DNA from: a virus
Strand: one strand, 5' to 3'
IMG/VR virus record: IMGVR_UViG_3300031705_000002
Span: 1-64,000 of that record
Length of the DNA stretch: 64,000 nt
In this document: positions 6,401 to 39,014 of the stretch, in pieces
Position numbering within the stretch: position 1 is the stretch's first letter
Layout: each line of letters opens with the position of its first letter
The notes under the pieces: model-generated
Seen by the model: only the letters and a program-made list of their open reading frames with translations
What the model was told of the DNA's origin: nothing
Databases searched by the model: none
Made by a program: the position numbers and the translations under genes

Positions 6401-8363
6401 TTTGTCTTGCAGAAAACTTTGTAATAAGGTTATCAATACCCTTGTCTCCGAATAGTTCAGCTGCTACAGGTATTTGTTTTAAGAACTCACTGTCCATATC
6501 CATTTGAAGCAACGTCACTTTAGGAGTTAGTTCAAAAACCCCATTAACTTTCTGTTGCTCATACTGAACATGTATTGGAACAATCCTAGATTTTCTTATC
6601 TTTGATATTCCATACTTACGCATTAAGATGTCTTTGTATGCACTAATCTGCATATTATACCCATCCATCTTTGGTCCAAAAGGACTAGATATTAGTTTAG
6701 TGCTTGCCCCATACCCAACTACGGCGTTATCTCTAGAACTAGGAGTCGTAAACTTGTAATCATATATGTCAGCGCTGTTGTCAGAGTATAGTATTACTAA
6801 ATCTGCTGTACCAGCTGTGTCTTCATGTACAATACCTTTCTTACCGTCCGGGTCATATACTACCTGTTCTGTAAACACAATGAATTCACCCTCTTTACCA
6901 GTAGTTTTGTTGATCTCTTCTTGCTGCTTCTTAGCTTGCAGGTATATACGATTAATACCCTTTGCTAAAGTGTTGAATTGAGCCTGAGTTAAGCCAGAGT
7001 CCTTGAATATTGCATCTTTGTCGCCCGTTTTATGCGCGATAAGCTCCATTATTCTTTGGGAAGTGTTATGGTGGTGCGTTCCACCCTCTCTTTTTATCTC
7101 ATTGTCTTTATTCTTGTTAATTTCTGCAGCTTTTTCCTTGCCGCCTACTTTCTTAACAAACTTTGCTTGATTTCTATCAGTAATACGATTCCATATTATC
7201 TTATCCTCATCAAGCATCTTATACCTGTTACTCTGACCTGACTCGTCTCCAATAAGAGACTCTCCATCCTTGGCCATTTTCTCTATTTCCTCATTCGCTA
7301 CTGAAACCTGTTCTATGTTAGCAGTAGTTTTGTTGAACATGTCCACAGTTCTAGCGACTTTTTCTTCATCACTCTTGGGGGCCTCGTCTTCTAGCTCGTA
7401 GAAAGGAACTTGCCCCAGAGTTGCAGTACGCGCATTCTGTATGTTGTTAACCTGTTTGTTTATAAGACTTAAAGCAGCTCTCATATATGGATCTTCACTA
7501 GGTTTCTTGAACATCCCTTTGATGAATCTCAGAACCTTGTCAAACCATCGTTCTGCTCTAGCAGCCTTGGTAGGAAACTCTCCCGTTACTTCGCCGGCTA
7601 CAATTATCTGCGCGATAACCTTACCTACGGCCTCTTCCTTAAGTCTTTCTACGTCGTTGTTGTATACTTCTGAATACTGATCTACTACCTCTTGGTATAA
7701 ATCATAACTTACTATCTCATCCATCATAGACCTATACAAAGGACTATTTTCAGACTTGAGAATCTTTACAAAAAAGTGAGCTGCCTCTTCTGGTAGAGTA
7801 CTTAGACCGGCCTTACCTTCAACTACTTCTACAACCCTGTTAAGCATGTCAGCTTTTGCAACAGCATTCATAGGGTTACCATTCGCATCTAATATTTCAC
7901 TTACAATCTTATAATCTACATTAATAAGCTTAAAGAAGTCCTGCATTTTAAGGTCTAACTCTAGAAGAGGGTTACCTTTTGCCACCATTTGGTACTCAGG
8001 AGGTAGAAAATCTCCTACGCTATTAAATACACCTGCAGCCATTTCTGTTGGTGACTGCATAAACTTATCCCTATTATAATTCTCAACTATCTTATACTCA
8101 TACAAAGTAGATTGACCTAACTGCGTAAAGTTCACTCTATGCAATGTACCCATCTTCTTGTTGTACTCCTTTAACCGTGCAAGTGTGTTCTTAACCTGTG
8201 TGTTAGACAAACCCCTTTTAGGGTTCGCCGGAAGCTTGAGATCTACCTGAGTGTTAGGTATCTTATTATTGTTCTTTGTATATAAAGAGTATGTAGAAAA
8301 ATCACCTATTGCTCCAGATAATTTTTTCCAATCCGGGTGTGATTTATTAGGACAAGTTGCCAT
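3405..8363 (-). CDS. Large virion cargo protein with PD-(D/E)XK nuclease-like domain
   Basis: A 1652-residue protein, last in the minus-strand block and 3 bases after the giant RNA polymerase gene. By position it corresponds to the large cargo proteins that crAss-like phages pack and eject together with the polymerase. Near residues 430-540 there is a PD-(D/E)XK nuclease pattern: a GTHHHNTS helix start (about 431), Asp521 in GTAD, then Asp535-Tyr-Lys537, spaced as in RecB/Cas4-like nucleases. Around residues 189-196 is LPEEAAHF, a zincin-like helix in which the first metal-binding His is replaced by Glu, so it may be an inactive protease remnant. The rest is long helical and charged. Hydrophobic Ala/Gly-rich segments near 1218-1240 and 1525-1542 could insert in a membrane during ejection. 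Start ATG; the 3' end overlaps a convergent gene. Confidence 0.8.
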   Translation of the reverse strand: MATCPNKSHPDWKKLSGAIGDFSTYSLYTKNNNKIPNTQVDLKLPANPKRGLSNTQVKNTLARLKEYNKKMGTLHRVNFTQLGQSTLYEYKIVENYNRDKFMQSPTEMAAGVFNSVGDFLPPEYQMVAKGNPLLELDLKMQDFFKLINVDYKIVSEILDANGNPMNAVAKADMLNRVVEVVEGKAGLSTLPEEAAHFFVKILKSENSPLYRSMMDEIVSYDLYQEVVDQYSEVYNNDVERLKEEAVGKVIAQIIVAGEVTGEFPTKAARAERWFDKVLRFIKGMFKKPSEDPYMRAALSLINKQVNNIQNARTATLGQVPFYELEDEAPKSDEEKVARTVDMFNKTTANIEQVSVANEEIEKMAKDGESLIGDESGQSNRYKMLDEDKIIWNRITDRNQAKFVKKVGGKEKAAEINKNKDNEIKREGGTHHHNTSQRIMELIAHKTGDKDAIFKDSGLTQAQFNTLAKGINRIYLQAKKQQEEINKTTGKEGEFIVFTEQVVYDPDGKKGIVHEDTAGTADLVILYSDNSADIYDYKFTTPSSRDNAVVGYGASTKLISSPFGPKMDGYNMQISAYKDILMRKYGISKIRKSRIVPIHVQYEQQKVNGVFELTPKVTLLQMDMDSEFLKQIPVAAELFGDKGIDNLITKFSARQKKLEAKLKKVNGEKWSTINAEIMSLQNAIQDLQLSGGVGNILADVRNKMILIKRKLEHKQPLLDDGSLNPDYMEIEEITDLLESFSLYRTMALETGEYFKDVLANSTDTERRRLKEVMDKYAGPIERTYGLLRDENAARTLEMGNAAGIQNNTRSVKELGFFKKLFNTASEFSHPIFQTAWSLIDKAQEKTRKAQATLEKNIIEKQDKVTAWAKSNNMSTMDAYSMMINPETGNLWGKHSEVYYKRLEQAQKDNDIVWLKDNFQAKEGYKVKFEQWKKREFARIEERNADYYEWDAATNKDVLIKDKAQQREQMRNAWLATHDLSRNSAWSSKKAWYHLELNPEKEATYYSEEYSKIHKEAPLKEFFEFYEKTNREFADMTGMSIKSNFVANIQEDLIDSLGSGTHSLTMDTTLEGLKISQDQGEHGIRNPVTGVLEPSIPLLYQNTITDGTKTKDLGRALYLMGKTAHNYANKAEIEAPILALGNFIIDNPALTEDLKGNVVREATGKLGNKLYSKDTQELFEQLYLNYYVYGQKIQSTDKDIGGYSMNKMILSAKQYFGAKVLAIAIVPGTAAYLAAKANAYFEGAKGLHYTNKQLNKTHVLLARQTDVYRAVVDDFQIWQDDVTHRRANDLSASKLTKYVTMDKLYYPYRKADEMIDNNILVAMMQNYGVDANGMPKKLDLLPEGSKSMFELAQESLQEGGTLSYGALSEQGYRKFRGIAQYVAGSIKGQVSDQDINAVQTTLIGNVMMQFKNWMPRMVRERVGPFRYNHRADTYEMGRYGVIAGEAFQIEEGIMNTVKSALVSGVKLSAEVVTFGVGYNMKPNEELAKKLLKQFKENNPDDPKIQELTYNEFLTMRSRQIRAAAAELRGILMLAAGLLILGFKGDDEERFYTKYWVTRKLYSALSRTAMELGFLLNPNDLTTFMKGTVPMASLFTDALKALGNTQDEVVDAISGRKDSRDKTPWGYYSLPFLPGYKQVSRWIEVYDQDKTNPYR

Positions 8364-8366
8364 AGA

Positions 8367-11300
8367 TTAACATTTAAAGTAAGTTTCCATTGTTTGGATA
8401 AAGCCTGCAAGTGCAGGATTAGTAGTAGCTGGTAACACTAAGACAGCGTTATCATTTGCATCTATCAGAGCTTTTAATCCACTAAGCATAGCATCATAAG
8501 TAGCTCCAGGGATAGCCTGCGCATCTACTGGTCCCAAACCTAGCAAAGATACTAAGAATTTCTTCTTAGGACTCTTTTGCATTGTATTATTTAGATTTCC
8601 AATTTGAGTTATAAAGTCTTGTAATGTTGGCGCGGCATCTTTAGAGGCCTTAACCGGTACTGATACTAAACCAGGTTTAGCTGTGTACGTTCTTCCAACT
8701 TCCAATCCTTTAGCTTTTGCTATAGAGGACAGACCATTTAAACTTCCATCTTGATTAGTGGATATTACAGGGATACCATCTAAAGAGAATATATCACCCT
8801 GTACAACCTTTTGTCCTGAAGCCACTTTCGGGGCAACATTAATAGGTGTAGGCTCTAAAGGTTGAAGTATGTCTTTAAGATTTCTATCTGCAGTTTTAGA
8901 CGTCCAATCTATATTATCTCTCGTAATGTTGTTCTTACGAATGATAGAGATAGGTTTAGCTAACCCATATTCCTTCAAGAACATTCCATCTCCTAGTGTA
9001 GGTATCTGTACCCACTTAACTGTCTTCCACTCTCGCGGTGCGTTAGCATAAGATTTACCTTCATCTAACCATTGTATCAACAAAGCTTGATTCTCTAGCA
9101 TTCCTGGAGCCAGTTTGAATAAGTAAACCTCTTTTATGCTTTGGCTTCTCTTCTTCTTTAGCTTCTTCTCTTCAACGCTAAGCGACGTATCTTCTAATTC
9201 TACAGTTATGTAGTCTTTTAAGATACCCTTTGTAGGCATAGGACGAGAAGATATATTTCTATTTACAGTAACCTCATCCTTTTTTAACTTCTTGTACTGC
9301 CCCATAGACATAGCCTCATAATCCTCACGTGTAAGGAATTGAGTTTTAAACCTCTCTACTGCAAATTCATTTTTATAATTATTTCTAATGAATTGCTCAG
9401 AGAATACGCTTAAGTCTTGTTGGCCAGGATTAAATAAGAAGTTCTTAATGATAGGTTGAACTACTCTCATGTAGTGTTCTGTAGGTATAATATCTAAGAA
9501 CGATATAGGAGATGTCATTTGACCCGACTGTAAGATGATGAACTTAACAATGTCATCAGCTAGGGCAGGATCCTTATCCATAAGGATTTGGAAGTCCTCT
9601 ATTAGTACGTTTCTATCGTACGACGTAAGACGTTTAGAGAACTTCTTAAGATTCTCTATACGGAACTTAGTATCTGTAGGATCGTACTTCTGTAGTATAG
9701 GGAATAGCTCATTAAGAATCAACGACTTTTCGTTACTCTTACGCATTTCATCCTTCATGTGCTTGATACGTCTAGGTAAACTAGGAGTACTTTCATTCCC
9801 CTGGAATAATCTAGATGCATGTGTGAAAATCTCATTCCCCTTGTCACCAACGGTAGACAGTATGAAGGATACAAAGTTATGCTCCACTAAATCTCCGTAC
9901 TTAGCTTTATCTTCTAACGATAATGAACGAGTCATTACACGGATCAATAGATTTGATACTACCTCCTTAGCGTCCTCATCTTTATCAGACATAAATATGT
10001 CGTTAAAGATTTGGCCACCTTCTCTTTGTGCATCCTCGAAACTTCTCTGGAAACTTTCTTCCAAGTACTTGTCAAGGTTGTTAAACTTGTTGTCCATTAT
10101 TAATGTAGACAATTGAAGGTCTCTAATACGAGTTTCCATTCTACTCTTAGAAGTCATACCACCACGATCACCTAATACTGCTTGCGACAGTTGAGATAAA
10201 GGACCTGCAATATTTACTGATACCGAGTCATATAGATCCAGCATATCAATCTGTGCTAAGTAGTAATCATGTATTTCCTCTTTTGTAAGGGCAGTCAAAC
10301 CTACTGCTTCTGCTATAGATTTACCTGCTGTAATAGCATTCTCATACGCAACCAGTTCAGAAGTTCTTTTTAGTAAAGTCTCTAACTCTTCTATAGTACC
10401 AAACCCTGCGCTTGTAGGCGTATACCCTTCAGGCATGTCAGGACTAAATGAGTTTATTTCTTCTTTAACTTTTTCAATTACATCCTCTCTCTTTACCCCA
10501 GGTAAATCAGTTTGCATTGCTACATACCTAGTTAGACCTCCTTGGGTCATGTATCTTGTTACATACTCTAATGGTACTCCTACTCTTAGTAGTCCAAAGT
10601 ATGCTCCGGCAGTTATCAAGTTAGCATTTATGTCAAATACAAATGGATCATTTGCAACATCTACGAATGCATTAATGAATTCACCAATAACCTCTGAAAT
10701 ATAGTTGGTACCTGTAACGTCTTTAGCGTATCCTACGCCGTAAGATACGTTTCCGTCTGCATCTATGATAGCTTCGTGGTGTGGGAAAGGAATACCAAGT
10801 AGTTCTTTTGCTCTTAACGCTAACCCAGCACGTTGTGCCTTTATTTGGTGCGTATTAGTAACAGCTGCTACCCCTAATGCTTGTTTACCTACCCAGAATC
10901 GTGTACCCATCTCTTGGATGTATTCAAATTCCATAAGCTTAGAGAAGTCTATCTTTTCTTGTGACTTTCCTTGAACACCTCTTACCTCATTAGCCTGACC
11001 TTTAAGTCTATCTGCTCCTACTGGACGGATAAGCTGCTCGAAGTTCATTGGGTGTAACACAATCTCTCTAGATTTAGAAAGTATAGCATTATCAATTGCT
11101 TTTTGAGCGTTTTGTCTCTCAATAGAGATAGTTGGGTTCTTTTTAGCAAGGTCAGTAGTTAAAGCACCTTCTAGCTGCTTGTCCATCTTTTCAAAAAGAC
11201 TTTCAATTTTACTAAGTTGACTTTGAAGACTAACATCTGCTCCCGCATCATCTACTCCTATTGTTTTGATAAGTTTAGAAAGCTCTATACCTATCTCATA

Positions 11301-14300
11301 GTCTAAATTATCCTTTTGATTAGCATTAGCTTTTCTCTTCTGCGCGTAGAGCTCATCAATTCTTTGTAGAATTTCTTGATTCTCCACAGTCTGAAGATGC
11401 TCTCCAAGCTCAATCTTAGTGTCCTTAAACTGATCAGATAGGGCCTGGAATGCCTTTACAGCACTTTCCTTGAATCCTAATGTATCTAAAAGTAACTTGT
11501 ACTTTCTAGGGTCATGCTTTCTTAGTTGTTTAACTCTTACTTCTACACTAGACCCCGTGTCTAAGAATTTTATTCTAGTTAACTTATTTTTACCTTTGTT
11601 CCACTCATAGTTAGGGAAGTATAAGGTCAATTTATCAATATCATAATCGGAACCAGCTTTCACAACAATCTCAGAAGGTGTCATAATAGCCTCACCTGCA
11701 GATTCAGGTAAGAACCCTTTGATAACTATTGCATCTATAGAGTTAAGCGCTGATGTTGGGATACGGTATCCAAAAATCTCTAAGAGATCTGAGTTACCTA
11801 TCTTTTCACCGTCTTTGTAGATTCCATCTTCTCTTACCTCTACATTCTCACCTATAAGCTGCTTGAAGTAGTGGGGAACCATAACTTCCATAGCCATTGT
11901 CTCACCATCTTCTCTTCTGTAGAACTGTAAAGCCTCTACATTTGCTCCAAATGAATGTTTGTCTTGGTATATTGTAGGAATACGCTGTGCTTCAAACCCT
12001 GTAGAAGCTACCTGTACCTTAGATGCACCAAATGTTTTGTATCTGATAACTCTGTTGGCTGCTAAAGAATATAATAAATTCTCTATTTGAGGCTTATTCC
12101 CTAGTAAATCTAGTACCCTAGTTTCAGAAGCTAAGAACTCTTCAAGTCCCTCTACATAAGAGTCAGACATGTCTCTACTTTTTGCTTCCTGCATAAGTAG
12201 CTCTGTAAGTTTCTCAGCACCTCTGTCATCTACATAGTATCCGTTCTCGTCGCTTTCTATTCCAAGGTCCTCAAGTAGTAGAGCAAATTGAGCATCTACT
12301 GTTTCATTCTCTAGTCTAGTAAGCGCTTTATCAAGTTTGACAACATCTTCATTAACAACTGCCCCATTATCGTACGCATTCGACGCCAATAAAGCTCTCT
12401 GTTGTGTACCTCTTACAGTTTTGTCCTTAACTTTTTCGCCCATCTCTACCTGAATACCCATGTACTCATAGTAAAGCTCTTGAACATTTGCTCCTTTGAT
12501 TCCTTCGTAGATACCAGTCTCGTCGTAGAAGTTATTAGCCTCTCCGTTTTTATCAACTATAGCACCTATCTTTACACCACTCTTAAATACAGTAAGGCCC
12601 ACTTGGTTCTTTTGCATATCGCTATACATACGAGCAAGGTTACTATCAGGACTCACAGATTCCATAAGTGATGGGAATAATGGTAGTAATGAAAGTTTAT
12701 AGAATGCTGGACTATATATTTTAGAGTTATATGTAGGACCGTAGTACTGAGGTTTTAGTGGAGTAAAGTATGCTACTTCTTCAGCATTTAACTTGTCTCC
12801 GGCCTGTAGCTTAGCGTACGCCGCTCTTTGATTAGGCGTAATGTCACCTACTCTCTCTAAGAATTCCATATACTCATCTATAGTGATATACCCTTGGGCA
12901 TCACCTTCCTCAAACTCTAAGTATCCCTTTAAAGTTTGGTATACTTCTTCTGTTTTAGGATCTACAGCTGTTGCAGGGTTTAGAAGTTTCGCTTGCATAG
13001 CAAAAGGATCTGCACCTAGAGATTGTGAGTAGTCTATGAATGTTGAATCAGCGATTCTACCTTTTACATCTTTGTATACAGTAGTACGAAGTCTTCCATC
13101 CGGACTCTTACCATCTAATCTCTTGTAGTTTCTAGATAACCATTCATTAACCTTGGCGCTAACATCTGCAAACTTCTTAGGACCGTGAGGACCAGAAGTA
13201 CGCTTGAAGTATGCATTCGCTTTAAAGAATCCAACATCACCTAAGATTAATACAGTCTGCTCTATGTTACCTACCAGAGAGATCATGTTGAATCTTTCTA
13301 CGATATTGGTAACATCTCTTTTTGTTAGTAGCTTTTCCTTAAGACCTTTCTCTGAGATAAGCCCTGCAGGCATACCCTTTAAAACGTCCTTATGTAGTCT
13401 AGTACCAAAGTTATCACCGTTATCATAAAACAGTTTAGTTTTAACACCCTCACTAATCATTGTGGTATTACGACCCTCTAGGTATTTTATAATGCCTGCA
13501 TTAATAGCAGTCTTATTATCCTCTAAGTATTGATCTATACTGTCTACATTTATAGCGTTTAGATCAATTACATCCTCCAGGTAGCTAAATAACCTAAGTT
13601 TGTTCTTATTATCTTTGTAGTCTGATACATTGTTACCAGCCTCTATCTTAGCTTTATATATCTCCATTCGAAGATACTTTGTCATCTGCGTAACAAACGC
13701 CGCCCTAGTTTTAGGCATTGAGTTGAAGATAGATTTACCTTCCTCATTCTTCTGTGTAAGATCGAATACAAATTCAGTCTTCTTTTCAGAAGCTCTAATC
13801 ATAGGAATTATACCTTGCATTATAGCTGCAAACTCTGTATTAAATCTACGTCTTGGGGATGCATTCTCAAACACATTACCAAATCTGCTAGATTTCTTTT
13901 TAATACCATTTATACTTCCTAGGCTAATTTTCATACCCTGTATAGCACCCTCTAAAAGTAAAGAACCTTGAACAGATTCCTTTATGTTTCCAGCTTGGTC
14001 TAATAAGAAGTCAGGTATCTTACCATTGTTAAGTCTACCTACAATATTTGTAGCAAAGTTATTCAGTATTATAGAGTACACAGTTTTACCCTCAGCATTT
14101 TGAAACTGAAGATCAATTGTTTTATCCGTACGCTTAGCTTGTATCTCTATGATTTTCTTGATACGAGTATATGCACCACTTTGTACATTGTAGAAATCTT
14201 CTATACTTTCGTTAGATTCCCCTAGTTTTATCAACTCAGGTATAACCCCTTCCACAGCATTTTCATAGATAGAGTTCTTTTCTATCATAGTTAAGCTATC

Positions 14301-17300
14301 TCTATCTGTAAAGATGATACCAAAGTTCTCCAATAGATCTATCACGTCGTCCGCCGAGAACGTACCTGCTCCTACAAAGTCATTTAAGCTTAAGCTTCTC
14401 TTTCCAATTTTCATTTTCTTGGAAGTATCAACTAACATCTCTTCTGTAGAAGGATCTTTCTTGAATGGGCCCTTGTTTAAGCTGAAGATCTCCTTAAGGT
14501 TACTTCTAAACTCCTCGATAAGAAGAGCTGACTCTCTATCTGCGTTAGCTTTTATGAATCTGATGGAGTTATAGTTCTCACCTCTTGAGTCATCCTCAAT
14601 GATAGCCAACATATCCTCACTGTTAAATTTGTGGAACTGTTGTCTGAACTGTCTTTGCAACTTAAACTCATTAGGACTTAAAGCCTCTGAAGACTCATTA
14701 GCTTTTAACCTATCTACAAGGAAAGAGATAGTACCCTTTCTTCCGCCTACGTCCCCAAACTCTGGGTGCGACGATTTAAGAGCTTCTAAACTTGCGATCT
14801 GATCCTCGAAGGATTCAGTACCTGCTAGCTCTCTCATTACTAGGTTGAAGAATGGTCTGTAATCTACAAGCCCAATTGAATGAACTGAATTTACATTCCT
14901 ATTACTTCTACTTGCTGGTAATGTTGCGATAAGTAACTTAACTAATGCAGGTGCTAATTCTTTAGCATTAACTTCATTAGCTTCATTGATGTTGTAACTG
15001 TCTCTAAACTTAGTAGATTCTTCCTCTACCTTACCTTGGAACTCTACTTTGAACTGCGTTAACCAATCGAACATGCTTTCTTTGATCTCAGCTCTGTTCT
15101 GATCTATCATACGCATCATATCCATGATTCCAGAGGCCTCTGCCGAGTTCTTTGGAAGCGCCTGATATGTTTTAGCTAAACTACTTAAACGTACGTTAAA
15201 CGCCTCGTTTATAAGTCTACCAACTTCCTTGGATCTAGCCTCAGAATGTTGTCTATCTGCTAACTCTAACAGGTCCTGTAGAGTTAAGTCAGTTTGTATC
15301 CCAGTACTGTTTGAGAAAAAGAACCCAAAGGTATCTGCGATTAAGCTTTCTACTAAATCTTTACTCACTCCTACTGACAGTTTGGCCCCATTTTTAAGTA
15401 GTATCCTCTTGTCGAGCGACGTTTCAGACTCTGCACTAGCAACCGGGTCACTGAATGTATTGTTTTGTATAGCTGTAAAGAATTTTTGAAGTCCTTCTTG
15501 CTCTTGCTTAGTACCTCTCCCTAACATATTGTTAAAGAAATCCTTAAGCGATTGGAAGAATCTCTGTATTAGAGTTCTTTCCTTACCTGCTTTATCACCT
15601 ATCTTATAGTTACCATCAAGTAGCATGAAAGTTCTAAACTCTTCTGCTAGTGATTCCTCTACATTATCAGTGATACCTGTAAGTTTACTGTACGCTTCAA
15701 ACACTTTTGCCTTAGTTTCAGGTGTAGTGAACTTACCCATAACAACGTGGAACGCCTCATGGTAAGTTGTACCCTGTACAGCTAGCTCAGATATTAATAC
15801 ACGTGCAGCATTTAAAGTTCTACCGTATGCTTTACCACCGATTAGTCCCTCAATAACCTTTATAGGTATACCAGGGAACTTAGCTTCAAACCACGCTTTC
15901 TCTTTTGCTATATCAGCTTTCTCATACTTCTCAGTTACTACTTCTGCAAGTAGGTTCTGAACTTGGTCCTCAGCTGCTTGATCGTTAGGATCTTCACTTC
16001 CTATGCCTAGCATGCTGTTTAGGAATGCCTCATTTTCAGCATCCAACCCTAGAGCGCCGGTTGGTTCTATAGGGGTCGAGTCTGCTATGACCTCTTTCTC
16101 TATAGTTGTAGGGTTAGTTACAACTGTAGGATCGAGTACTATGTTTTCAATTGTTAAGTTTCCTGTAATCTGAGGAGACAGTTGTTTTAAGCTTTCGAAT
16201 GAAGGCGTAAAAGATGCGCCGTTAAGCACTGCCATAGAATTCGTAGATTCTACAAGCTTTTTAACACCTTCCGGAACATTGTCAGGATCTATAAACTCAA
16301 GTACGTTATTACCACCTGTTCTAGCTATCTTGTATTTAACTTGAACACCTGCGGCATTAGTATAAACTAAGTCATACTGAGTACCTTGGGTCATTTGATT
16401 AGAATCTATTGCTGTAGACTCTGCATCTTGTGTATTTGTTTCAGCTACTGGTGGCGCTGGTGTAGGATCTGCGTTAGGAAGTTGATTTTTAAATGCATCA
16501 ACATCTGTTCCCTCTGTAGGCTCTGACTGTTGTATAACAGGCTTCTGAACAGGCTTTACTTCCGGTGTCTTTGTATTAAACTTTAGATATGTGAACTTGA
16601 ACTGTGTAAGGTTTACATTGTCCGTGTCTTCTTGCACTAAAGCAGTACCTAAAGGAGCGCCGTTATGGTCTCCCTCTCTAGGTCTCATTAAGTAATCTTT
16701 ATAGTTGGTATAAGTTTCACCTTGTACGTAATTTCCTTCAGCGTCAATTGTGAATTCTGTGTACGGCGCTTGGGAATCCCCAATAAGCTTCTTATCTATG
16801 TTGTGAGTTTTGTTCGCTAAGAACTTTCTTAGAACTTCTACATTTGCCTCGTTATATAAAGGAACTGTAACCTCTCTCATGGACCCTGTTTCCGGATCTC
16901 TACCTTTTTGTATGGTAACTCCTTGAGGGTCTAGGGTTCTGATGTCCATTTTAACTCCTCCAACGTACAACATCTCTATTCCACCTTCCATACGTGTATG
17001 GATATTGAACCTTGGATTGTGTGCAAAACCGTCCCATCTACCAAACTTGATTATCTCTTTAAGGTATTTGAATACGGACTGGTTGTCGCTTCCTTCTATA
17101 ACTTCTGCATTCTCCTTTACTCCAGGATCTAGTGACATTATAGCTCTACCATACTTGGTAAGCACTTGTATAACAGTCTCAATCTCCGTGGCATTAAGGT
17201 TTCTCTTCTCCATTCTTACTGGACGACCTTTATGCACAGCATAAATCTCTCCTAGAATAGCTTTAAAACTTGTACCAAACTCAGCCATTGATGTACCCGT

Positions 17301-20300
17301 AGCAATCCTAAGTGGAATACTAGCTATGCTTTCTAAGGACTGGGTAATTCTACCTAGTACAGAGTTTTTAGGGAATACATATCTGTTAGATTTAGATCCC
17401 TCACCTCTTACTTTAGGTGCGTAGTGTGGCATCCCTTTACTGATACCTGATAACTCTAAGTATACATTTTTACCTTTCTCTTTAGATCCAATTAAGTTTC
17501 TTAAAGCGATATGGTTATCTGTCAACTCTTTATGTAACGCTATCTTTTCTGCTGCTTCTAGTTTACTAGAAAAATATTCAACAGGTTTTGGAAGCATCAT
17601 AGAAGTATACACCAAATCATCACCCATCTTTATAGGTAAGCCTGTTTTTTGGTAACAAACAACTAGTATAATATCTTTCTGACCGTCCACATCTGGGTAG
17701 AAGTCATTATCTGTTAAAGCTTCAAACGGATTATTATCCTTAGTAACAGCTATCACCTTATAGGCTCCAGATGCTACAACTTTATTACTAAGACTGTCTA
17801 CAAACTTAAAGAACGTTCTCTGTGAAGGAGACATGTGTTTAGGGTCTAGATTATCTGCTTTATCAGCTCTATCTATACCTGCAGTTTTGTTATACCCAAC
17901 AGTAGCAAGATCAGGTTTATAGTTATCATCCTTAACCTCTTGCTCTTGCGCATTCTGCTTGTCCTCTAATGTAGAGTCTGGGTCTATTCCAAAGTCTTCT
18001 GGGTCATCCTGGAATACCTCTTCCGTGGATGTAGCCTCTGACTCTTCTTGTACTTTATTTGCTAGCGTTCCTTTGGGAGCACCTCTAGCTATGTCTTCTT
18101 CTATTTGCTCTTCCTGATTTATAGCAGATAGTTTATCCTGTACAGCAGTGTAGTTTCTACCAAATATAATACTTCTCTGAACCTTGGACATGCCTCTATA
18201 CTTATTCTCAGCAAGTTGTAGTAAAATGTTCTCACGCTTCTTAGCCGCGGCTATGGTATTTTGTAAATCTGCAAGTTTCTCTTCCGTAGCAAAGAATTCG
18301 TCCTCCAAAAACTTTTGGTCTTCTCTGGCCTTCTCTATGGCAGGTAACTGTGCAAATAAATCCGGAGTAAGACTAGATTGTATCGCGTATAGTGCAGGAT
18401 ACTTCTGTCTCTCCTCATTAGTGTACTTTGTGATGGACTCGTAAGTAGGCTCTACTCCAGGGTTAGCTGCTCTAAAGTCATTGATTACTTTTAACAGTCT
18501 ATCTTCCTTAAGAATTCTGTTAAGTACATCTTTATAATCTTGAAGCTTTTGGATGTCATCCGATAGTACATCTACCTGTAGCATAATCTCCTCAAGAGCC
18601 TGCTCTGTTCTAGACACACTTGCCGCTGCATTAGTTGTAAGCTCAGATTGAGTGCTTAACTTTTGAGTACCGTCTTTTTGTAAGGTAGTACCAGAAATAT
18701 TAAGGGCATCTAATCCCTCAGCTTTAACCTGCTTTTCTAGCTCAAGTTTTTCTTCCATACTTAAGTTCTGAGAAGTCTCAGTAGCCTTAAGCATCTTATC
18801 TAAAAATACTTGATTCTCTTCTAATGTAGTCTTATCTGCTAAAAGTTTATCTCTTAACGCTGATACCTCTACCTGTAAGTCTGTTGCAATTTTAAGCTCT
18901 TCCTCTAGTTGTTTTGTAGATACAAATCTACCTTTAGAATCACGGTTGTTTTTCTTCTTACTTAGGCGCTCTGATATGTAGCCTATAGCTTTCGCTAGTC
19001 TTACATCTAAAGCTTCAATAGCTTCTGCAGCCTCTTGAATCTTCTTAACGTTAGTAGATTGTATTCTCTGTACAGCTTCCTTTACTTTTCTACGCTCTAT
19101 ACCTCGTTGATCTAATTGTTCAACAAGCGCTGCAGTTCTAGTACCATTGTTAAATATTACTTTTGCAGGTATTTGGTCTGTACCATCTTTTACGTTATAT
19201 AAAGTGTTAGGGTCTAGGAACTTATACGTCTGTAAGTTTTTACCATCTCCGTCAACATCTACCACAAACTCATCCTCACGAGAAGCCTCAAAAAGCTTTT
19301 CCATATCACCGTCACGGATAGCCTCTTCCTTCTCCATCTTTACTCGCTCTTCTTCATCTTTGGATTTCTGATCCATAAAGAAGTCAACCATTTGAAGGTA
19401 TTCTTGCTGTCCTTGTGTTGTAAGTAGTAAATTATAATTAGTCAAGAAATCTTGACGTCTTTGACGTACCATTCTTAAGTCACGCAGAAGAGCTTTAACC
19501 TCTTCCTGCTTATCAAGTTTGCCTGCTTCAGTAGGGTTTTTCTTCTTCCACGCCTCAAGTAATGCTTCGTCTTCTTCTGTGTTGCTGAAAGGATCTTTTC
19601 CTACCTCTCTGTCGAGTACTGGTGCAACGTTCCCTTTACCATCACCTTCTAATCCGGCAGCTTCAGTTCCTCTTAATTGATCGTACAAGCTAGAGTTTTT
19701 ATCAGTGCGCATAGATCCGTCTGTGATCTCATCAATCATATTACTGATCTCTTCCTCTCTCTTATCTACGTTCTCAATAGTAGAAGCTGCATGTATTAAG
19801 CCTCTACGTACTTTATCATTCTCACCTATGTATGCTTTATCTACAGCTTTTGTAGCTGCTTTAATTTTTGCTGCCTTACTTAATGCAGACGAGACTACTT
19901 TCTCTTTACGGTCTGCAATCTCATCCGAGCTAAGATCTTCATTTTCATATCCAAACTCCTGCACGAACTCTTCGTCAGACATATTACGAACCTCTTCCAT
20001 TTCGCTTTTAATATCATTGTAGAACCCACCCTCTATTCTAGAGTGTATGTAGCTAAATAGTGCGTCGTTCTCTAGGTTCTTATACGCAAACATGTTGTTC
20101 TCTGCTAATGCAGCATCCATCTGTTCTTGTAAGTTAACCTGTTCTGCGTAGTTGTCAAAGTTTCTTTTAACTGCAGCTACAGCAGAAGGGTTTTTATTCA
20201 TGTACTTGGTAAGCTTATCTATGTGCTCTCTTCTTTCTAGGCGATCTTTCAATCCGTCCCATACACCACCTTGCATACCATCAAACTTACGCTTACCTTC

Positions 20301-21782
20301 TGTACCGTCTTTGTTTTTAGATTTTGTATAACTAGGAAGACCCATAGCCCCTAATAAGAACCCAATACCTATTTCTTTTTGTGACTCTTTACTTCCATAC
20401 GCCTCTGCGAATGTGTCATCTGCCGCTCTGATTATACCTAAAGCAGCGTTGACTCCGTTAGCTCCTCTACCGTTTGTGTATGCCTCAGCTGCAGCGTGTT
20501 GACCAGACAGGTCAATCCATTTCTGCCCACCTTCTTCTACAAACCCTTCGTAGAAAGGATTTTTAAGTACGTGATACGCAGCACTTGCTAGTTTTTTACC
20601 TGCACCATATGACTTATACGCTGCTCTATACGGATCTAAAACACCATCAGTAACATCTTTTATAATACCTCTACGTGCATTCTTAACAGCTCCACTTCTT
20701 GCAGCTGCTCTTGCTCCTGCTCCAAATATTTTTGGAAACTGCAATGCATTACCGTATCCTACTAATGCCAGGTTAGCTCCAAATACTGCGTTAGCAGATT
20801 GGGTAGCTAAATCTTGTATATAAGCTAAATCTTCCCCTTCAGGATTCTCTCCATCATGCTCATCTCTATATGTTTGTAGTAAATCTTTCTTAACACTATT
20901 TAAATGATGACGAGCTTCTACTCCAGATTCATATCCAGCTCCAGACAGTAATTGTCTAGCCACAATAGACGCTTGCCTAGCTTTCATTCCAAGGCTAACT
21001 TTGTTAGCAGCGGAAAGTGCTTTAGCAGCTTTAGCTCCCTTACTTCCCATCTTAAGCATACGAGCTGCTCTTGCAACTAATGCGGCAGTAGTAGCCGCCT
21101 GTACAGGTGCCGCAGCCCCAAAGGTAGCTGCAGAAGCAAAAGTTAGTGCAGCCTCAGTTAATACAGCCCCTGCAATAAAAGAAAGGCCATTAGTAAAGTC
21201 ATTAGCCCAAAAATTGGCAGTCCCCATACTTCTGAAGAAGCCGTATTCACGCTCTTCTTTAGATACATAGTTAGGTAACTTACCATCCATTCCTTCGTTC
21301 AGACTGTCTAGCCCGTTCTGGAACTCATTATCAAAGATGCCTTTAAAGGAATCTTGTGCACTAGTATCCGTAAAGGCATACGTACCTACTGCACCTATAC
21401 TAGATACTAAAGCACCTATACCTCCTGCACCTGCTGTAAGAGTTTTACCCGCAAACTTAGTTATACCGTTAGCCCATTTAGAGGCTGTAGATTGTCCAAA
21501 AGCAGCCCTGTCTTCTAGGTCATCATGCTCTACATTGATACTACCTACCTGTCTGTTTTGAAGATCTGCAGATCCTTCCAATGCATCATCGTACAGATCT
21601 TGATCCACAAGACTTGTTCTACTGAACCCTAAACTTGCGTCCGGGCCAGTAACATCTAGAAAACTACTAGAGTTTACAAGGTCTGAAGTCTTTTTTTCGC
21701 GCGCATTTCTCTCGGTCTCTTCTTTAGAAAGCCCTGTTTTAGGGTCTATCGAAGGCGTATTTATTGTGTCTAAAACTCCCAT
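8367..21782 (-). CDS. Giant virion RNA polymerase cargo protein with embedded metalloprotease
   Basis: A single 4471-residue frame. Domains in order: an Ala/Gly-rich hydrophobic region (about 100-260) that could cross or pore a membrane; long charged coiled coil (about 600-1250); a beta-rich middle region; a zincin motif His2008-Glu-Ala-Phe-His2012 followed by Glu2043/Glu2047 in EESLAEEF, the expected position for a third ligand; then the polymerase, with a first barrel candidate near 3240-3320 and the catalytic loop Asp3379-Tyr-Asp3381-Ile-Asp3383 inside GSDYDIDKL. In crAss-like phages this DxDxD loop binds the catalytic Mg of a virion RNA polymerase related to the eukaryotic RNAi polymerases, which is ejected and transcribes early genes. 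Residues from about 4328 to the end resemble a diverged macro-like domain. The protein is about twice the length of the Cellulophaga phage phi14:2 polymerase as I recall it; the HExxH domain might cleave it after synthesis. Confidence 0.85.
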   Translation of the reverse strand: MGVLDTINTPSIDPKTGLSKEETERNAREKKTSDLVNSSSFLDVTGPDASLGFSRTSLVDQDLYDDALEGSADLQNRQVGSINVEHDDLEDRAAFGQSTASKWANGITKFAGKTLTAGAGGIGALVSSIGAVGTYAFTDTSAQDSFKGIFDNEFQNGLDSLNEGMDGKLPNYVSKEEREYGFFRSMGTANFWANDFTNGLSFIAGAVLTEAALTFASAATFGAAAPVQAATTAALVARAARMLKMGSKGAKAAKALSAANKVSLGMKARQASIVARQLLSGAGYESGVEARHHLNSVKKDLLQTYRDEHDGENPEGEDLAYIQDLATQSANAVFGANLALVGYGNALQFPKIFGAGARAAARSGAVKNARRGIIKDVTDGVLDPYRAAYKSYGAGKKLASAAYHVLKNPFYEGFVEEGGQKWIDLSGQHAAAEAYTNGRGANGVNAALGIIRAADDTFAEAYGSKESQKEIGIGFLLGAMGLPSYTKSKNKDGTEGKRKFDGMQGGVWDGLKDRLERREHIDKLTKYMNKNPSAVAAVKRNFDNYAEQVNLQEQMDAALAENNMFAYKNLENDALFSYIHSRIEGGFYNDIKSEMEEVRNMSDEEFVQEFGYENEDLSSDEIADRKEKVVSSALSKAAKIKAATKAVDKAYIGENDKVRRGLIHAASTIENVDKREEEISNMIDEITDGSMRTDKNSSLYDQLRGTEAAGLEGDGKGNVAPVLDREVGKDPFSNTEEDEALLEAWKKKNPTEAGKLDKQEEVKALLRDLRMVRQRRQDFLTNYNLLLTTQGQQEYLQMVDFFMDQKSKDEEERVKMEKEEAIRDGDMEKLFEASREDEFVVDVDGDGKNLQTYKFLDPNTLYNVKDGTDQIPAKVIFNNGTRTAALVEQLDQRGIERRKVKEAVQRIQSTNVKKIQEAAEAIEALDVRLAKAIGYISERLSKKKNNRDSKGRFVSTKQLEEELKIATDLQVEVSALRDKLLADKTTLEENQVFLDKMLKATETSQNLSMEEKLELEKQVKAEGLDALNISGTTLQKDGTQKLSTQSELTTNAAASVSRTEQALEEIMLQVDVLSDDIQKLQDYKDVLNRILKEDRLLKVINDFRAANPGVEPTYESITKYTNEERQKYPALYAIQSSLTPDLFAQLPAIEKAREDQKFLEDEFFATEEKLADLQNTIAAAKKRENILLQLAENKYRGMSKVQRSIIFGRNYTAVQDKLSAINQEEQIEEDIARGAPKGTLANKVQEESEATSTEEVFQDDPEDFGIDPDSTLEDKQNAQEQEVKDDNYKPDLATVGYNKTAGIDRADKADNLDPKHMSPSQRTFFKFVDSLSNKVVASGAYKVIAVTKDNNPFEALTDNDFYPDVDGQKDIILVVCYQKTGLPIKMGDDLVYTSMMLPKPVEYFSSKLEAAEKIALHKELTDNHIALRNLIGSKEKGKNVYLELSGISKGMPHYAPKVRGEGSKSNRYVFPKNSVLGRITQSLESIASIPLRIATGTSMAEFGTSFKAILGEIYAVHKGRPVRMEKRNLNATEIETVIQVLTKYGRAIMSLDPGVKENAEVIEGSDNQSVFKYLKEIIKFGRWDGFAHNPRFNIHTRMEGGIEMLYVGGVKMDIRTLDPQGVTIQKGRDPETGSMREVTVPLYNEANVEVLRKFLANKTHNIDKKLIGDSQAPYTEFTIDAEGNYVQGETYTNYKDYLMRPREGDHNGAPLGTALVQEDTDNVNLTQFKFTYLKFNTKTPEVKPVQKPVIQQSEPTEGTDVDAFKNQLPNADPTPAPPVAETNTQDAESTAIDSNQMTQGTQYDLVYTNAAGVQVKYKIARTGGNNVLEFIDPDNVPEGVKKLVESTNSMAVLNGASFTPSFESLKQLSPQITGNLTIENIVLDPTVVTNPTTIEKEVIADSTPIEPTGALGLDAENEAFLNSMLGIGSEDPNDQAAEDQVQNLLAEVVTEKYEKADIAKEKAWFEAKFPGIPIKVIEGLIGGKAYGRTLNAARVLISELAVQGTTYHEAFHVVMGKFTTPETKAKVFEAYSKLTGITDNVEESLAEEFRTFMLLDGNYKIGDKAGKERTLIQRFFQSLKDFFNNMLGRGTKQEQEGLQKFFTAIQNNTFSDPVASAESETSLDKRILLKNGAKLSVGVSKDLVESLIADTFGFFFSNSTGIQTDLTLQDLLELADRQHSEARSKEVGRLINEAFNVRLSSLAKTYQALPKNSAEASGIMDMMRMIDQNRAEIKESMFDWLTQFKVEFQGKVEEESTKFRDSYNINEANEVNAKELAPALVKLLIATLPASRSNRNVNSVHSIGLVDYRPFFNLVMRELAGTESFEDQIASLEALKSSHPEFGDVGGRKGTISFLVDRLKANESSEALSPNEFKLQRQFRQQFHKFNSEDMLAIIEDDSRGENYNSIRFIKANADRESALLIEEFRSNLKEIFSLNKGPFKKDPSTEEMLVDTSKKMKIGKRSLSLNDFVGAGTFSADDVIDLLENFGIIFTDRDSLTMIEKNSIYENAVEGVIPELIKLGESNESIEDFYNVQSGAYTRIKKIIEIQAKRTDKTIDLQFQNAEGKTVYSIILNNFATNIVGRLNNGKIPDFLLDQAGNIKESVQGSLLLEGAIQGMKISLGSINGIKKKSSRFGNVFENASPRRRFNTEFAAIMQGIIPMIRASEKKTEFVFDLTQKNEEGKSIFNSMPKTRAAFVTQMTKYLRMEIYKAKIEAGNNVSDYKDNKNKLRLFSYLEDVIDLNAINVDSIDQYLEDNKTAINAGIIKYLEGRNTTMISEGVKTKLFYDNGDNFGTRLHKDVLKGMPAGLISEKGLKEKLLTKRDVTNIVERFNMISLVGNIEQTVLILGDVGFFKANAYFKRTSGPHGPKKFADVSAKVNEWLSRNYKRLDGKSPDGRLRTTVYKDVKGRIADSTFIDYSQSLGADPFAMQAKLLNPATAVDPKTEEVYQTLKGYLEFEEGDAQGYITIDEYMEFLERVGDITPNQRAAYAKLQAGDKLNAEEVAYFTPLKPQYYGPTYNSKIYSPAFYKLSLLPLFPSLMESVSPDSNLARMYSDMQKNQVGLTVFKSGVKIGAIVDKNGEANNFYDETGIYEGIKGANVQELYYEYMGIQVEMGEKVKDKTVRGTQQRALLASNAYDNGAVVNEDVVKLDKALTRLENETVDAQFALLLEDLGIESDENGYYVDDRGAEKLTELLMQEAKSRDMSDSYVEGLEEFLASETRVLDLLGNKPQIENLLYSLAANRVIRYKTFGASKVQVASTGFEAQRIPTIYQDKHSFGANVEALQFYRREDGETMAMEVMVPHYFKQLIGENVEVREDGIYKDGEKIGNSDLLEIFGYRIPTSALNSIDAIVIKGFLPESAGEAIMTPSEIVVKAGSDYDIDKLTLYFPNYEWNKGKNKLTRIKFLDTGSSVEVRVKQLRKHDPRKYKLLLDTLGFKESAVKAFQALSDQFKDTKIELGEHLQTVENQEILQRIDELYAQKRKANANQKDNLDYEIGIELSKLIKTIGVDDAGADVSLQSQLSKIESLFEKMDKQLEGALTTDLAKKNPTISIERQNAQKAIDNAILSKSREIVLHPMNFEQLIRPVGADRLKGQANEVRGVQGKSQEKIDFSKLMEFEYIQEMGTRFWVGKQALGVAAVTNTHQIKAQRAGLALRAKELLGIPFPHHEAIIDADGNVSYGVGYAKDVTGTNYISEVIGEFINAFVDVANDPFVFDINANLITAGAYFGLLRVGVPLEYVTRYMTQGGLTRYVAMQTDLPGVKREDVIEKVKEEINSFSPDMPEGYTPTSAGFGTIEELETLLKRTSELVAYENAITAGKSIAEAVGLTALTKEEIHDYYLAQIDMLDLYDSVSVNIAGPLSQLSQAVLGDRGGMTSKSRMETRIRDLQLSTLIMDNKFNNLDKYLEESFQRSFEDAQREGGQIFNDIFMSDKDEDAKEVVSNLLIRVMTRSLSLEDKAKYGDLVEHNFVSFILSTVGDKGNEIFTHASRLFQGNESTPSLPRRIKHMKDEMRKSNEKSLILNELFPILQKYDPTDTKFRIENLKKFSKRLTSYDRNVLIEDFQILMDKDPALADDIVKFIILQSGQMTSPISFLDIIPTEHYMRVVQPIIKNFLFNPGQQDLSVFSEQFIRNNYKNEFAVERFKTQFLTREDYEAMSMGQYKKLKKDEVTVNRNISSRPMPTKGILKDYITVELEDTSLSVEEKKLKKKRSQSIKEVYLFKLAPGMLENQALLIQWLDEGKSYANAPREWKTVKWVQIPTLGDGMFLKEYGLAKPISIIRKNNITRDNIDWTSKTADRNLKDILQPLEPTPINVAPKVASGQKVVQGDIFSLDGIPVISTNQDGSLNGLSSIAKAKGLEVGRTYTAKPGLVSVPVKASKDAAPTLQDFITQIGNLNNTMQKSPKKKFLVSLLGLGPVDAQAIPGATYDAMLSGLKALIDANDNAVLVLPATTNPALAGFIQTMETYFKC

Positions 21783-21784
21783 AC

Positions 21785-24001
21785 TTAGTAATCAGTAATT
21801 TTAAATTGTTGTGATCTGTATTGACTTAACGCTTCATTAAACTCCTCATGTCTAGGATGAGACTCGTCGTTAGATATACTCCTCAATTCTCTAGGATCTC
21901 CTAACTTCATCAATCTCCCTACGCCGCCTAAGATAAGGTTTTCTACTTGAATAGTACCAAGTTGAACACTACTTACTGTTTTTTCTTGCTCAGCTGTTAA
22001 ATTCCAGTCTGCAACATCGAAGTCAGCGGGGTTAGATTGTAAAGCTTTCCCCATATCAGGGTTCATACGTCGTACATATCCCATACCTATAGCTTCTATT
22101 TTTTTAGTGTGATATTCACCTAAAGTTATATCCCCTGCAGCTGCTTCGTTATACGCATTTACATTACCTCTCCATATGTCCATTCCCATAGCGTCTGCTA
22201 TATTTGACATAAGTCCTAATCCACCTCCGTTATCTCCTTTAGCGATGGCTCTATAAGGTTTCCCTTTTATTTTTAAAACCATAGATGCTGGAGTACCAGC
22301 AAATATATCCGGAAGTACTAGTCCTCCAAATATAAAGTCAGGATTTTCTGTTCCTATAGCTGTTTGTAAGGCTGCAAGTTCCTTACTACTCATGGCTTCT
22401 CCGTCTGCTCCTATAATATTAAACTGGTCTACGGACATTGCCTTCAAGTTGTTATTGACTGCGGTATTCCCTTTAGTTCCGTTATGGTTAAATACTATTA
22501 GGTCATTAGTTTTTATAGGAGTTTTTTCATATGCCTCATAAAAATCATCCCCATTTGCTACATCCTTGTACGCACCATTTCCTTTCATAAAGTCATAATA
22601 CTGACCTGCTAGTGTGCTAAGCTGTGCTCTATCTGTGTCATTAAAATCTGTCCCAAAGTTTGAATTTATAGCTTCTATATTAGAGAATTGACTTTTCATC
22701 ATTTTTCGTTCTCCTTCTTCTGATAAGAATAACTTCCTAACGTTAGCAAAAGCACGTTTAGATACAGGTCTGTGTGTAGTAGATTCTCCTGCAGAGTTTT
22801 CTTGAACCGCCCCAAGTAAATCATTACTTCTATCCATCCCCCACGCACTTTTAGTAGTCTCCATTAAGAGGTTTTCTAATAGTTGGAACTTACTGTTTTT
22901 ACCTTTCCATAAATCTTCCCTAGCTTTAATATTTGCATCGTGGTCTCCCCCTTGCATTGTAAGCTTAATAATCTTGTTCCGTTTTACTTCAGCAGCATTC
23001 ATTTCTAATAATATAGATTGCTTTTTGTCCGGATCTGTTTCACCTCTATACGATTCTATAAGTTTCCCATAAGATGCGTTCTGTACCTCTATAGGATCTA
23101 AGTTTTCATCTATCACAGTTTGTCCGGGAACTGCCATACTATTTCCCATAGGAGTAGCAGGACCCTCTCCAACAGGAGCTGTCATGTACGAAGGAATCAT
23201 ACCTACTTGTTTACTTGCGATAGCTTTCATACTCTCCACAATAGCAACCTTTGCTTCCTCCTCTGTGTAACCTCCAAGCTCAGTCAAAGAGCGTAACTCT
23301 TGACGGCCTTCATCTGTTCCATATATATACGAATCCACTAAGTCGATTGCAGTATTATCTGCCTTTCCTTGGCTTACACCTGTCCAACGTTCCAGTAACC
23401 CTAAGATTTTACTAGGTTCTAGAGGGGACCCATTCTTAGATATACCTTTTAATACACTTTGTTTTTGAGCTGTATAATCAAGTTGGATTTGTGAATCAGG
23501 TCTATACACATTAGATACCATGTTACCATCTGCGTCTTCTGCATATGATTGATGATTGTCAAACTTATGCCCAACAACATTACCTTGGTCGTCATATAAA
23601 GCATTGAAATCTAGTACATGTGACACACCTTTTTCCAACCGTAGTTTAGCAATATCTTCTTGCTCTTTCTTACGTACCTGATAAGACTCTTGCGCTAATT
23701 GTACACCTTTATTAGAAACTAATCCGGTAGTAGCAGCATCTATAGTAACGCCAGAATTCTCCCAATCACCTGAATTAGCATGTTTTGCTAGCTGGTTTGA
23801 GATTTCATTCTTTGCGTTATTCAAAAGGTATTGATCTCCATCACCTACCTGCATAGCTCCCATAGCCTGCTCTAGTAGTGTCTTCTTCTCTAATCCTTTA
23901 TCATATCTCTCTCGTAAGATCTTAGCTACGTTTACAGACTGATCATCAACGTATTGACTCTGCATTGATCTTAAATTACTTCTAGTATATTTACTTGCCA
24001 T
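21785..24001 (-). CDS. Virion cargo protein, unknown fold
   Basis: A 738-residue protein between the peptidoglycan-active cargo gene and the giant polymerase gene, with a gap of only 2 bases to the latter. The N-terminal half is strongly helical and charged, with many Gln, Glu and Lys residues; the C-terminal half has more strands and Gly-rich turns. I see no signal peptide, no clear membrane helix and no catalytic motif. By position it matches the smaller cargo proteins that crAss-like phages store in the capsid or tail and eject ahead of the polymerase. That role is an inference from gene order only. Start ATG lies 10 bases after the stop of the frameshifted M15 domain, which argues that the upstream region is truly translated down to that stop. 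Confidence 0.7.
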   Translation of the reverse strand: MASKYTRSNLRSMQSQYVDDQSVNVAKILRERYDKGLEKKTLLEQAMGAMQVGDGDQYLLNNAKNEISNQLAKHANSGDWENSGVTIDAATTGLVSNKGVQLAQESYQVRKKEQEDIAKLRLEKGVSHVLDFNALYDDQGNVVGHKFDNHQSYAEDADGNMVSNVYRPDSQIQLDYTAQKQSVLKGISKNGSPLEPSKILGLLERWTGVSQGKADNTAIDLVDSYIYGTDEGRQELRSLTELGGYTEEEAKVAIVESMKAIASKQVGMIPSYMTAPVGEGPATPMGNSMAVPGQTVIDENLDPIEVQNASYGKLIESYRGETDPDKKQSILLEMNAAEVKRNKIIKLTMQGGDHDANIKAREDLWKGKNSKFQLLENLLMETTKSAWGMDRSNDLLGAVQENSAGESTTHRPVSKRAFANVRKLFLSEEGERKMMKSQFSNIEAINSNFGTDFNDTDRAQLSTLAGQYYDFMKGNGAYKDVANGDDFYEAYEKTPIKTNDLIVFNHNGTKGNTAVNNNLKAMSVDQFNIIGADGEAMSSKELAALQTAIGTENPDFIFGGLVLPDIFAGTPASMVLKIKGKPYRAIAKGDNGGGLGLMSNIADAMGMDIWRGNVNAYNEAAAGDITLGEYHTKKIEAIGMGYVRRMNPDMGKALQSNPADFDVADWNLTAEQEKTVSSVQLGTIQVENLILGGVGRLMKLGDPRELRSISNDESHPRHEEFNEALSQYRSQQFKITDY

Positions 24002-24011
24002 AGTTTCTTTT

Positions 24012-24530
24012 TTATGCTTCTACCCCGTAGATAGGGTAACCTCCTCCACTTATATGCCCACTAGGATACATATTATACGCATCTTCTGAGGAGTCATTAA
24101 ATTCTAAATGAAAATGTGCGCCCTTTTTGTTGCCACGCTCATCTATAAGCTCTGCGTTATTATCCTTTAAGTACTTTAATCCTTTTGCAGAAATCTTCGT
24201 TCCTTTTGTATCCCAATCATCAAAGAAAAACTTCATCATTGCTTTACCATCTGTGCTTTTTACTCCAAAATCTACAGCGTTACCTGATGCGTGTAACGAA
24301 CCTGAGTCTCCGTCGCGAGTAGCACTTGTTATAGTGTACCCATCAGAACCAAAATCTCCAGAAGAAAGTAACGAATTTAGGTTATATAAACCATGTTGAG
24401 CGTTACCTCCTAAAGCTGTGTTTTTAGCGTTACGTACAGTTATAGGAACATTTTTATTCTTGTATGTATCTATACCAAATGTTGACCAATCTGAATCAAC
24501 CTCCTCCTGGTCTGGAGTAGGTGTGATTAC
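24012..24530 (-). CDS. M15-type peptidase domain made by -1 frameshift from the preceding gene
   Basis: Reading frame -1 relative to the 1108-residue gene stays open for 172 codons from the slippery site to TAA at 24012-24014. It contains no ATG, GTG or TTG near its beginning, and a TAG lies just upstream (24537-24539), so it cannot easily be an independent gene. The translation has the M15 peptidase pattern: SATRDGD, then S-x-H-x-x-G-x-A-x-D (His at extension residue 80, Asp at 87) and HFHLEF near the end (His 139 and 141). These are the zinc ligands and catalytic region of D,D- and L,D-peptidases of the VanY and endolysin type. Joined to the upstream protein, the product would be about 1280 residues. 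An internal ATG at 24239 would give only the last 75 residues, without the zinc ligands. Confidence 0.8.
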   Translation of the reverse strand, partial: VITPTPDQEEVDSDWSTFGIDTYKNKNVPITVRNAKNTALGGNAQHGLYNLNSLLSSGDFGSDGYTITSATRDGDSGSLHASGNAVDFGVKSTDGKAMMKFFFDDWDTKGTKISAKGLKYLKDNNAELIDERGNKKGAHFHLEFNDSSEDAYNMYPSGHISGGGYPIYGVEA

Positions 24531-24536
24531 TTTCCC
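24499..24536 (-). promoter_or_regulatory. Programmed -1 ribosomal frameshift signal
   Basis: Zero-frame codons read AGG GGA AAG TAA. The heptamer G GGA AAG (24536-24530) is the same slippery sequence as in the lambda G-GT tail assembly genes. The zero-frame stop follows immediately. After a 7-8 base spacer (TAATCACA) comes a hairpin: CCTACTCC (24521-24514) pairs with GGAGGAGG (24507-24500), with one A-G mismatch and the loop AGACCA; an extra A-T pair can close the base. Spacing and stem position are as expected for -1 frameshifting. The -1 frame is closed by TAG only a few bases upstream, so the shift must occur here. Confidence 0.82.
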
Positions 24537-37836: not shown

Positions 37837-38310
37837 CTAATTTTTTTTAAATTTTAAATACGCCAAATCATCTGTTCTTAAAAGATGAATCAATTTTTCT
37901 TTATTTCCCTTTATTCCTCGTGTTAGGTCAAACCTATACACGGACTTATTAGGTATTAAGCATTTTCCTTTTCTCCAATAATATCTACAGTACTCAGCAT
38001 TAGTATGGTATATGTACCATTTTATTCCCTTACCTGTTTCGGAGTTATATAGGGCTATACCCTTAGTTTCTAGCTCTTTTTTATACTTCAAGCTTTCCCC
38101 CCAATCTATTTTAGGGAACGAAGGATTTGTTTCTACTCTCACAATCGACAGTGAAGATAGTTTATTTCCCATATTAAACGTGCCTCCATCTAAGATATAA
38201 TCAATCATATCTATGTTGAACTCAGAGCATATAGCTGTAAAAGTTTTCTTATCCACATATTCCTTCTCAGAAATATATTTTATATATATATCTTTTAAAG
38301 TGTATCCCAT
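37837..38310 (-). CDS. Small conserved crAss-like structural protein, copy A
   Basis: A 157-residue protein, basic and aromatic. Features shared with the protein at 44073-44537: a helical N-terminus, a DGG/DGS turn followed by a hydrophobic LSSLSIVRV-type strand, IDWGESLKYKKEL matching IDWQKSKELKKR, HTNAEYCRYYWRKG matching HTGGYKYRFYWKKG, and a basic C-terminal helix ending the chain. The family is widespread in crAss-like phages next to ring proteins and is thought to be virion-associated; its exact place is not known to me. It is coupled to the upstream ring protein gene by TAATG. It is the last gene of module copy A. Confidence 0.7.
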   Translation of the reverse strand: MGYTLKDIYIKYISEKEYVDKKTFTAICSEFNIDMIDYILDGGTFNMGNKLSSLSIVRVETNPSFPKIDWGESLKYKKELETKGIALYNSETGKGIKWYIYHTNAEYCRYYWRKGKCLIPNKSVYRFDLTRGIKGNKEKLIHLLRTDDLAYLKFKKN

Positions 38311-39008: not shown

Positions 39009-39014
39009 ATCTTT

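Follow-up and report, generated by a model that had tools for sequence, protein, structure and literature searches.

The window, which is the whole stretch of DNA analysed here, comprises positions 1 to 64,000 (64,000 nucleotides) of the virus record IMGVR_UViG_3300031705_000002, a record of 94,957 bp. On the minus strand at window 8367-21782 lies an ORF that runs from an ATG start through to a stop codon with 0 internal stops and encodes 4,471 aa. The first-pass annotation had treated this frame as one very large protein, and the frame is real: the coordinates were confirmed exactly; the chance of 4,471 stop-free codons, computed with this composition, was ~10^-147; relatives on public viral contigs (54-56% identity in the core) had it likewise as one uninterrupted ORF over the full length (4,424-4,425 aa); and dN/dS between two single-ORF relatives of this 4,424-4,425 aa group was 0.11 overall.

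The major head protein, portal and large terminase are encoded beyond the window and match crAss-like families, the head protein with ~36% identity to gut crAss-like phages and the large terminase with 38.5% identity to phi14:2. These genes, along with the tail tubular, IHF-like and 3,020-aa virion genes of the window, place the phage within Crassvirales as judged from gene content; no close relative was present among the records searched. The polymerase gene sits in a transcription block of large proteins adjoining the tail genes, and the gene order, which runs from the tail tubular gene through the large virion protein gene and two genes of cargo size to the polymerase and the third protein, is that of cr55_1, cr4_1, cr118_1, cr60_1, cr50_1 and Fpv1. 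The features are as follows.

8367-21782, minus strand: very probable single-chain crAss-like virion RNA polymerase, 4,471 aa, gp47-like plus gp66/gp50-like (ORF; PDB 6vr4, E 1e-26; crAss001 gp47 match)
20313-21524, minus strand: N-terminal module (residues 87-490), rich in Ala and with predicted helices (phi17:2 gp039, E 6e-52; crAss001 gp47; phrog_32390; hydropathy; low-confidence all-helical model)
18033-19685, minus strand: charged stretch, residues 700-1250, possible coiled coil (composition alone)
15453-15995, minus strand: zincin-like domain, residues 1930-2110 (HExxH motif; domain conserved in 73 relatives; matched by the C-terminal part of crAss001 gp47)
15747-15761, minus strand: HEAFH, residues 2008-2012 (motif)
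12933-14915, minus strand: N-terminal part of the polymerase subunit, residues 2290-2950 (hhalign to phi14:2 gp66 216-897, probability 99, E 8e-20)
12414-12752, minus strand: first beta-rich block (residues 3011-3123), which probably forms the beta-like barrel (AlphaFold strands; invariant columns; collinear with 6vr4)
11574-11918, minus strand: second beta-rich block, residues 3289-3403, predicted beta-prime-like barrel with the active site (AlphaFold strands; weak Foldseek matches to RNAP beta-prime)
11634-11648, minus strand: catalytic DYDID, residues 3379-3383 (motif; invariant aspartates)
10533-11102, minus strand: conserved region after the barrel, residues 3561-3750 (second stretch of the 6vr4 match)
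3405-8363, minus strand: 1,652-aa protein, third of the large proteins in the block and likely polymerase-associated (position; hhalign, E 1.5e-18 to the third proteins of split relatives and E 1.8e-7 to crAss001 gp49)
21785-24001, minus strand: 738-aa protein, putative counterpart of cargo protein C2 (position and size only; sequence comparison gave 0 matches)
24527-27853, minus strand: 1,108-aa protein, putative counterpart of cargo protein C1 (position and size only)
27853-36915, minus strand: 3,020-aa virion protein, putative counterpart of the muzzle protein, assigned by position and by a match to phrog_15100, virion structural protein (E 2.4e-36)
36915-37835, minus strand: tail tubular protein (phmmer to cr55_1, Fpv1, phi14:2 gp72 and crAss001 gp43)
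37837-38310, minus strand: IHF-like protein (phmmer to phi14:2 gp73, cr55_1 IHF-like and Fpv1 gp27)

Elsewhere in the window, a four-gene block (IHF-like, 231/232-aa virion protein, phosphoesterase, holin) occurs twice, at 37837-40549 and 44073-46794, with 70% DNA identity over the holin. The C-terminal part of a 389-aa protein (window 687-1856) matches RIIB lysis-inhibitor families (E 9e-8). Several large proteins (window 27853-36915, 50616-58484 and 60741-63998) have in common a motif such as GCTDSGALNYDPTATVDDGACEY or GCTDPQAYNHDPTALVEGGNCEY; motifs of this type are frequent in Bacteroidota surface proteins, and this one may point to the host.

By sequence search, residues 2947-3423 and 3561-3750 matched 6vr4, the solved virion RNA polymerase gp66 of phi14:2. 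A profile of residues 2821-3999 built from 59 sequences matched 6vr4 at E 5e-114 and was collinear over 877-1878; profile-profile comparison (hhalign) matched residues ~2290-2940 to gp66 ~216-897, and scattered matches to relatives reached ~residue 4210. The polymerase had been assigned to the last third of the chain; homology from ~2290 to ~4210 instead makes it roughly half. An AlphaFold model of residues 2821-3999 (pLDDT 85.2, pTM 0.86) gave 6vr4 as its best Foldseek match (E 6e-33), next QDE-1 (E 2e-3), and then weaker matches to phage and cellular polymerases; the rmsd to 6vr4 was 10.5 Å over 1,234 columns, so that domain placement differs. The second beta-rich block (3289-3403) could be superposed on cellular RNAP beta-prime chains over short lengths, at low rmsd but with weak statistics. 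The core matches two-barrel polymerases and not the N4-type (T7-related) single-subunit fold, and among the Foldseek matches listed for the core model there was no N4 polymerase.

The DxDxD loop that the first-pass annotation placed near residue 3380 is the DYDID above, and its aspartates were invariant in 59 aligned relatives. Lysines 3029 and 3071 in the first beta-rich block, and 3010 just before it, also occupy invariant columns; the residue following DxDxD was other than K in fused relatives L114-L118. The core is a homologue of phi14:2 gp66, with DYDID inside a predicted two-barrel polymerase fold, in agreement with the virion RNA polymerase identity first proposed from the loop; that homology is seen in sequence, profile and predicted fold. 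The two double-psi barrels in one polypeptide are assigned by prediction (AlphaFold, and Foldseek to 6vr4 and QDE-1), not by tracing the barrels strand by strand. A predicted structure lacking such barrels around DxDxD had been named in the first-pass annotation as grounds for rejecting its reading, and at this level of detail the model did not give that outcome. By collinearity with gp66, residues 3561-3750 would correspond to the bridge helix / trigger loop region.

The hydrophobic segments noticed ahead of the polymerase at first reading were seen at residues 114-137 and 199-225, and a weak third (3714-3732) lies inside the polymerase; by composition, residues 751-1250 are rich in E/K/Q/L. 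Residues 118-228, 326-789 and 1960-2055 matched crAss001 gp47, and residues 87-490 matched phi17:2 gp039 (L005, structural protein, 1,957 aa). The core profile that found the polymerase in crAss001, phi14:2 and Fpv1 did not find it in the phi17:2 genome; according to Yutin et al. the Epsilon group, phi17:2 included, is without the transcription block (PMC7886860). Presence of the N-terminal module in phi17:2 without a polymerase core favours a role in packaging or injection over one in transcription, and the module probably serves in packaging or in passage of the envelope. For the same reason the earlier suggestion of an ejection module fused to its cargo, with a putative membrane or channel role, is plausible. 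Pfam searches of the full chain and of its pieces gave 0 significant matches, and the AlphaFold model of residues 1-640 was all-helical at low confidence (pLDDT 58).

Between this module and the polymerase half lies the zincin-like domain; in related phages, module and domain make up a virion protein of their own. A possible third ligand for HEAFH is found in EESLAEEF near residue 2040, and an E-rich stretch downstream of the motif is conserved. A profile of residues 1930-2130 detected the domain in 73 loci, every time inside the polymerase ORF. The motif read HExxH in 36/74 sequences and HExxE in 38/74, with at least 4 changes between the two forms on the tree of cores; among the homologous domains in L009-L104, the HExxH members L075, L078 and L104 were nested in an HExxE clade. 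The idea that HExxE marks a dead protease was dropped, since CLCA family metalloproteases carry HExxE and self-cleave (PMC6851300); HExxE therefore cannot be read as inactive.

One explanation of this conservation is that the domain is an active entry enzyme, acting on the envelope or on ejected partners and co-delivered with the polymerase by the fusion. Domain and motif sequence are strongly conserved across relatives, with a dN/dS of 0.06 across the HExxH stretch, and the N4 virion RNA polymerase, of a different polymerase fold, has an HExxH in its C1 domain (PMC12633501). However, Pfam detected no protease family in the domain, phi14:2 gp67 is without HExxH, and homology of the N4 gp50 HExxH domain to the domain here could not be shown (hhalign probability 6%). 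On this balance of motif and conservation an entry enzyme is possible but somewhat doubtful. In the literature searched we found no zincin accompanying a crAss-like polymerase.

Single chains were found in five Suoliviridae genomes (4,491-4,946 aa) and in Flavobacterium phage Fpv1; Steigviridae, among them crAss001, phi14:2 and cr85_1, encode the two halves by separate genes. The tree of cores held 64 classifiable rows: 48 single-chain, 8 split before the HExxH domain and 8 split after it. The single chain is thus the commonest arrangement found here, and the rarity implied at first for so large a chain did not hold, the 48/64 share being no census since contigs were picked by similarity to this core. 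Breakpoint state required at least 6 changes on the tree, against an average of 15 after shuffling; as the tree was built quickly and contains three long branches, it can be relied on only for the clustering and for the existence of several changes. The polymerase gene of phage cr108_1 is split inside its DxDxD codons by a group I intron (RF00028, E 1e-20; L003:18375-18693), which accounts for the two annotated ORFs; introns at the DxDxD motif have been reported in other crAss-like phages (PMC7886860).

According to the polyprotein explanation, also raised in the first-pass annotation, the zincin-like domain or another protease would cut near residues 2110-2290 and release gp47-like and gp66-like proteins equal to the products of split phages. 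A metalloprotease-like motif does stand just ahead of the point where other phages have separate genes, and self-cleavage by the HExxE CLCA enzymes (PMC6851300) means that the HExxE variants could be active as well. But the motif is not tied to the fused state; HExxH is kept where the proteins are already separate (crAss001 gp47, L014, L015, L017, L018), so that its general function is not to cut at this junction. The breaks also fall on either side of the HExxH domain, and of all stretches measured the junction 2110-2290 gave the lowest dN/dS (0.016, L009 vs L011), unlike a free linker. Polyprotein processing is weakened by these observations as the main explanation and we consider it improbable; cutting of the chain is unlikely to be the main task of the HExxH domain, and the chain most likely works uncut.

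About as unlikely is that the N-terminal module and the HExxH/HExxE domain together constitute a transferable injection cassette, whose metal site would be an active enzyme opening the envelope or acting on ejected proteins; the pair precedes crAss-like virion polymerases, the module recurs in phi17:2 where the core was not found, and N4-type polymerases have an analogous arrangement. That DYDID is a chance string in a giant structural or tape-measure-like protein devoid of polymerase activity can hardly be credited: two further DxDxD strings do occur in the chain (at 842 and 3933), but the invariance of the catalytic aspartates and the fold and profile matches to 6vr4 already contradict it.

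We conclude that the chain is very probably a Crassvirales virion RNA polymerase that joins the gp47-like and gp66/gp50-like proteins in one polypeptide. The closest parallels in architecture are cr55_1 (4,551 aa), cr4_1 (4,491), cr60_1 (4,494), cr50_1 (4,774), cr118_1 (4,946) and Fpv1 (4,401), which are likewise one ORF with an N-terminal part and then a DxDxD core; the five Suoliviridae chains have HExxH ahead of the core, as here, whereas Fpv1 is without HExxH at that position. All have low sequence identity to the present chain, and they are annotated as hypothetical or structural or carry unrelated names. In phi14:2 (Steigviridae), gp66 with gp67 and gp65 makes up the same three-large-protein block, and its core is homologous and collinear; gp67 and gp66 are nevertheless separate genes and gp67 has no HExxH, whereas both parts are one chain with HExxH here. 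In crAss001, the counterparts are gp47 for the N-terminal half with its HExxH domain, gp50 for the core and gp49 for the third protein, but the genes are separate, with gp47 on the strand opposite to gp49 and gp50. N4 gp50 (Schitoviridae) is a single-subunit polymerase of another fold, and its domain order differs. P23-45 gp96 is a two-barrel polymerase fused to a giant virion protein, the tape measure (PMC10770324); there the polymerase is N-terminal on the tape measure protein, whereas the present polymerase makes up the C-terminal half of a cargo protein. Virion polymerases fused to large proteins were already noted (PMC10770324), and crAss-like virion polymerases of up to ~6,000 aa already described (PMC10136315), so that the chain adds a member to the known family of giant crAss-like virion polymerases. 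Neither the HExxH/HExxE alternation nor the movable breakpoint is stated in the literature cited on these polymerases.

Packaging, injection and early transcription by this chain are suggested by what is recorded for phi14:2 and crAss001. Virions of crAss001 contain gp45, gp46, gp47, gp49 and gp50, gp47 being identified by mass spectrometry, and in the model for that phage the cargo exits ahead of the DNA and partly unfolded (PMC10172136); in phi14:2, one virion polymerase shows activity in vitro and has been connected with early transcription that resists rifampicin (review: PMC10136315). By homology, the 4,471-aa chain is expected to do as one molecule what these proteins do. Inside the capsid, copies of it would accompany C1, C2 and the third protein; they would leave partly unfolded and ahead of the DNA and would refold inside the cell, where the C-terminal half would carry out early phage transcription independently of the host polymerase. 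We infer the order of injection, the refolding and any membrane role of the chain from those two phages.

The window thus contributes a crAss-like lineage from the environment whose single-chain virion polymerase is complete. With the fusion common and the breakpoint mobile, the two halves would appear to act together, the covalent link between them not being required.
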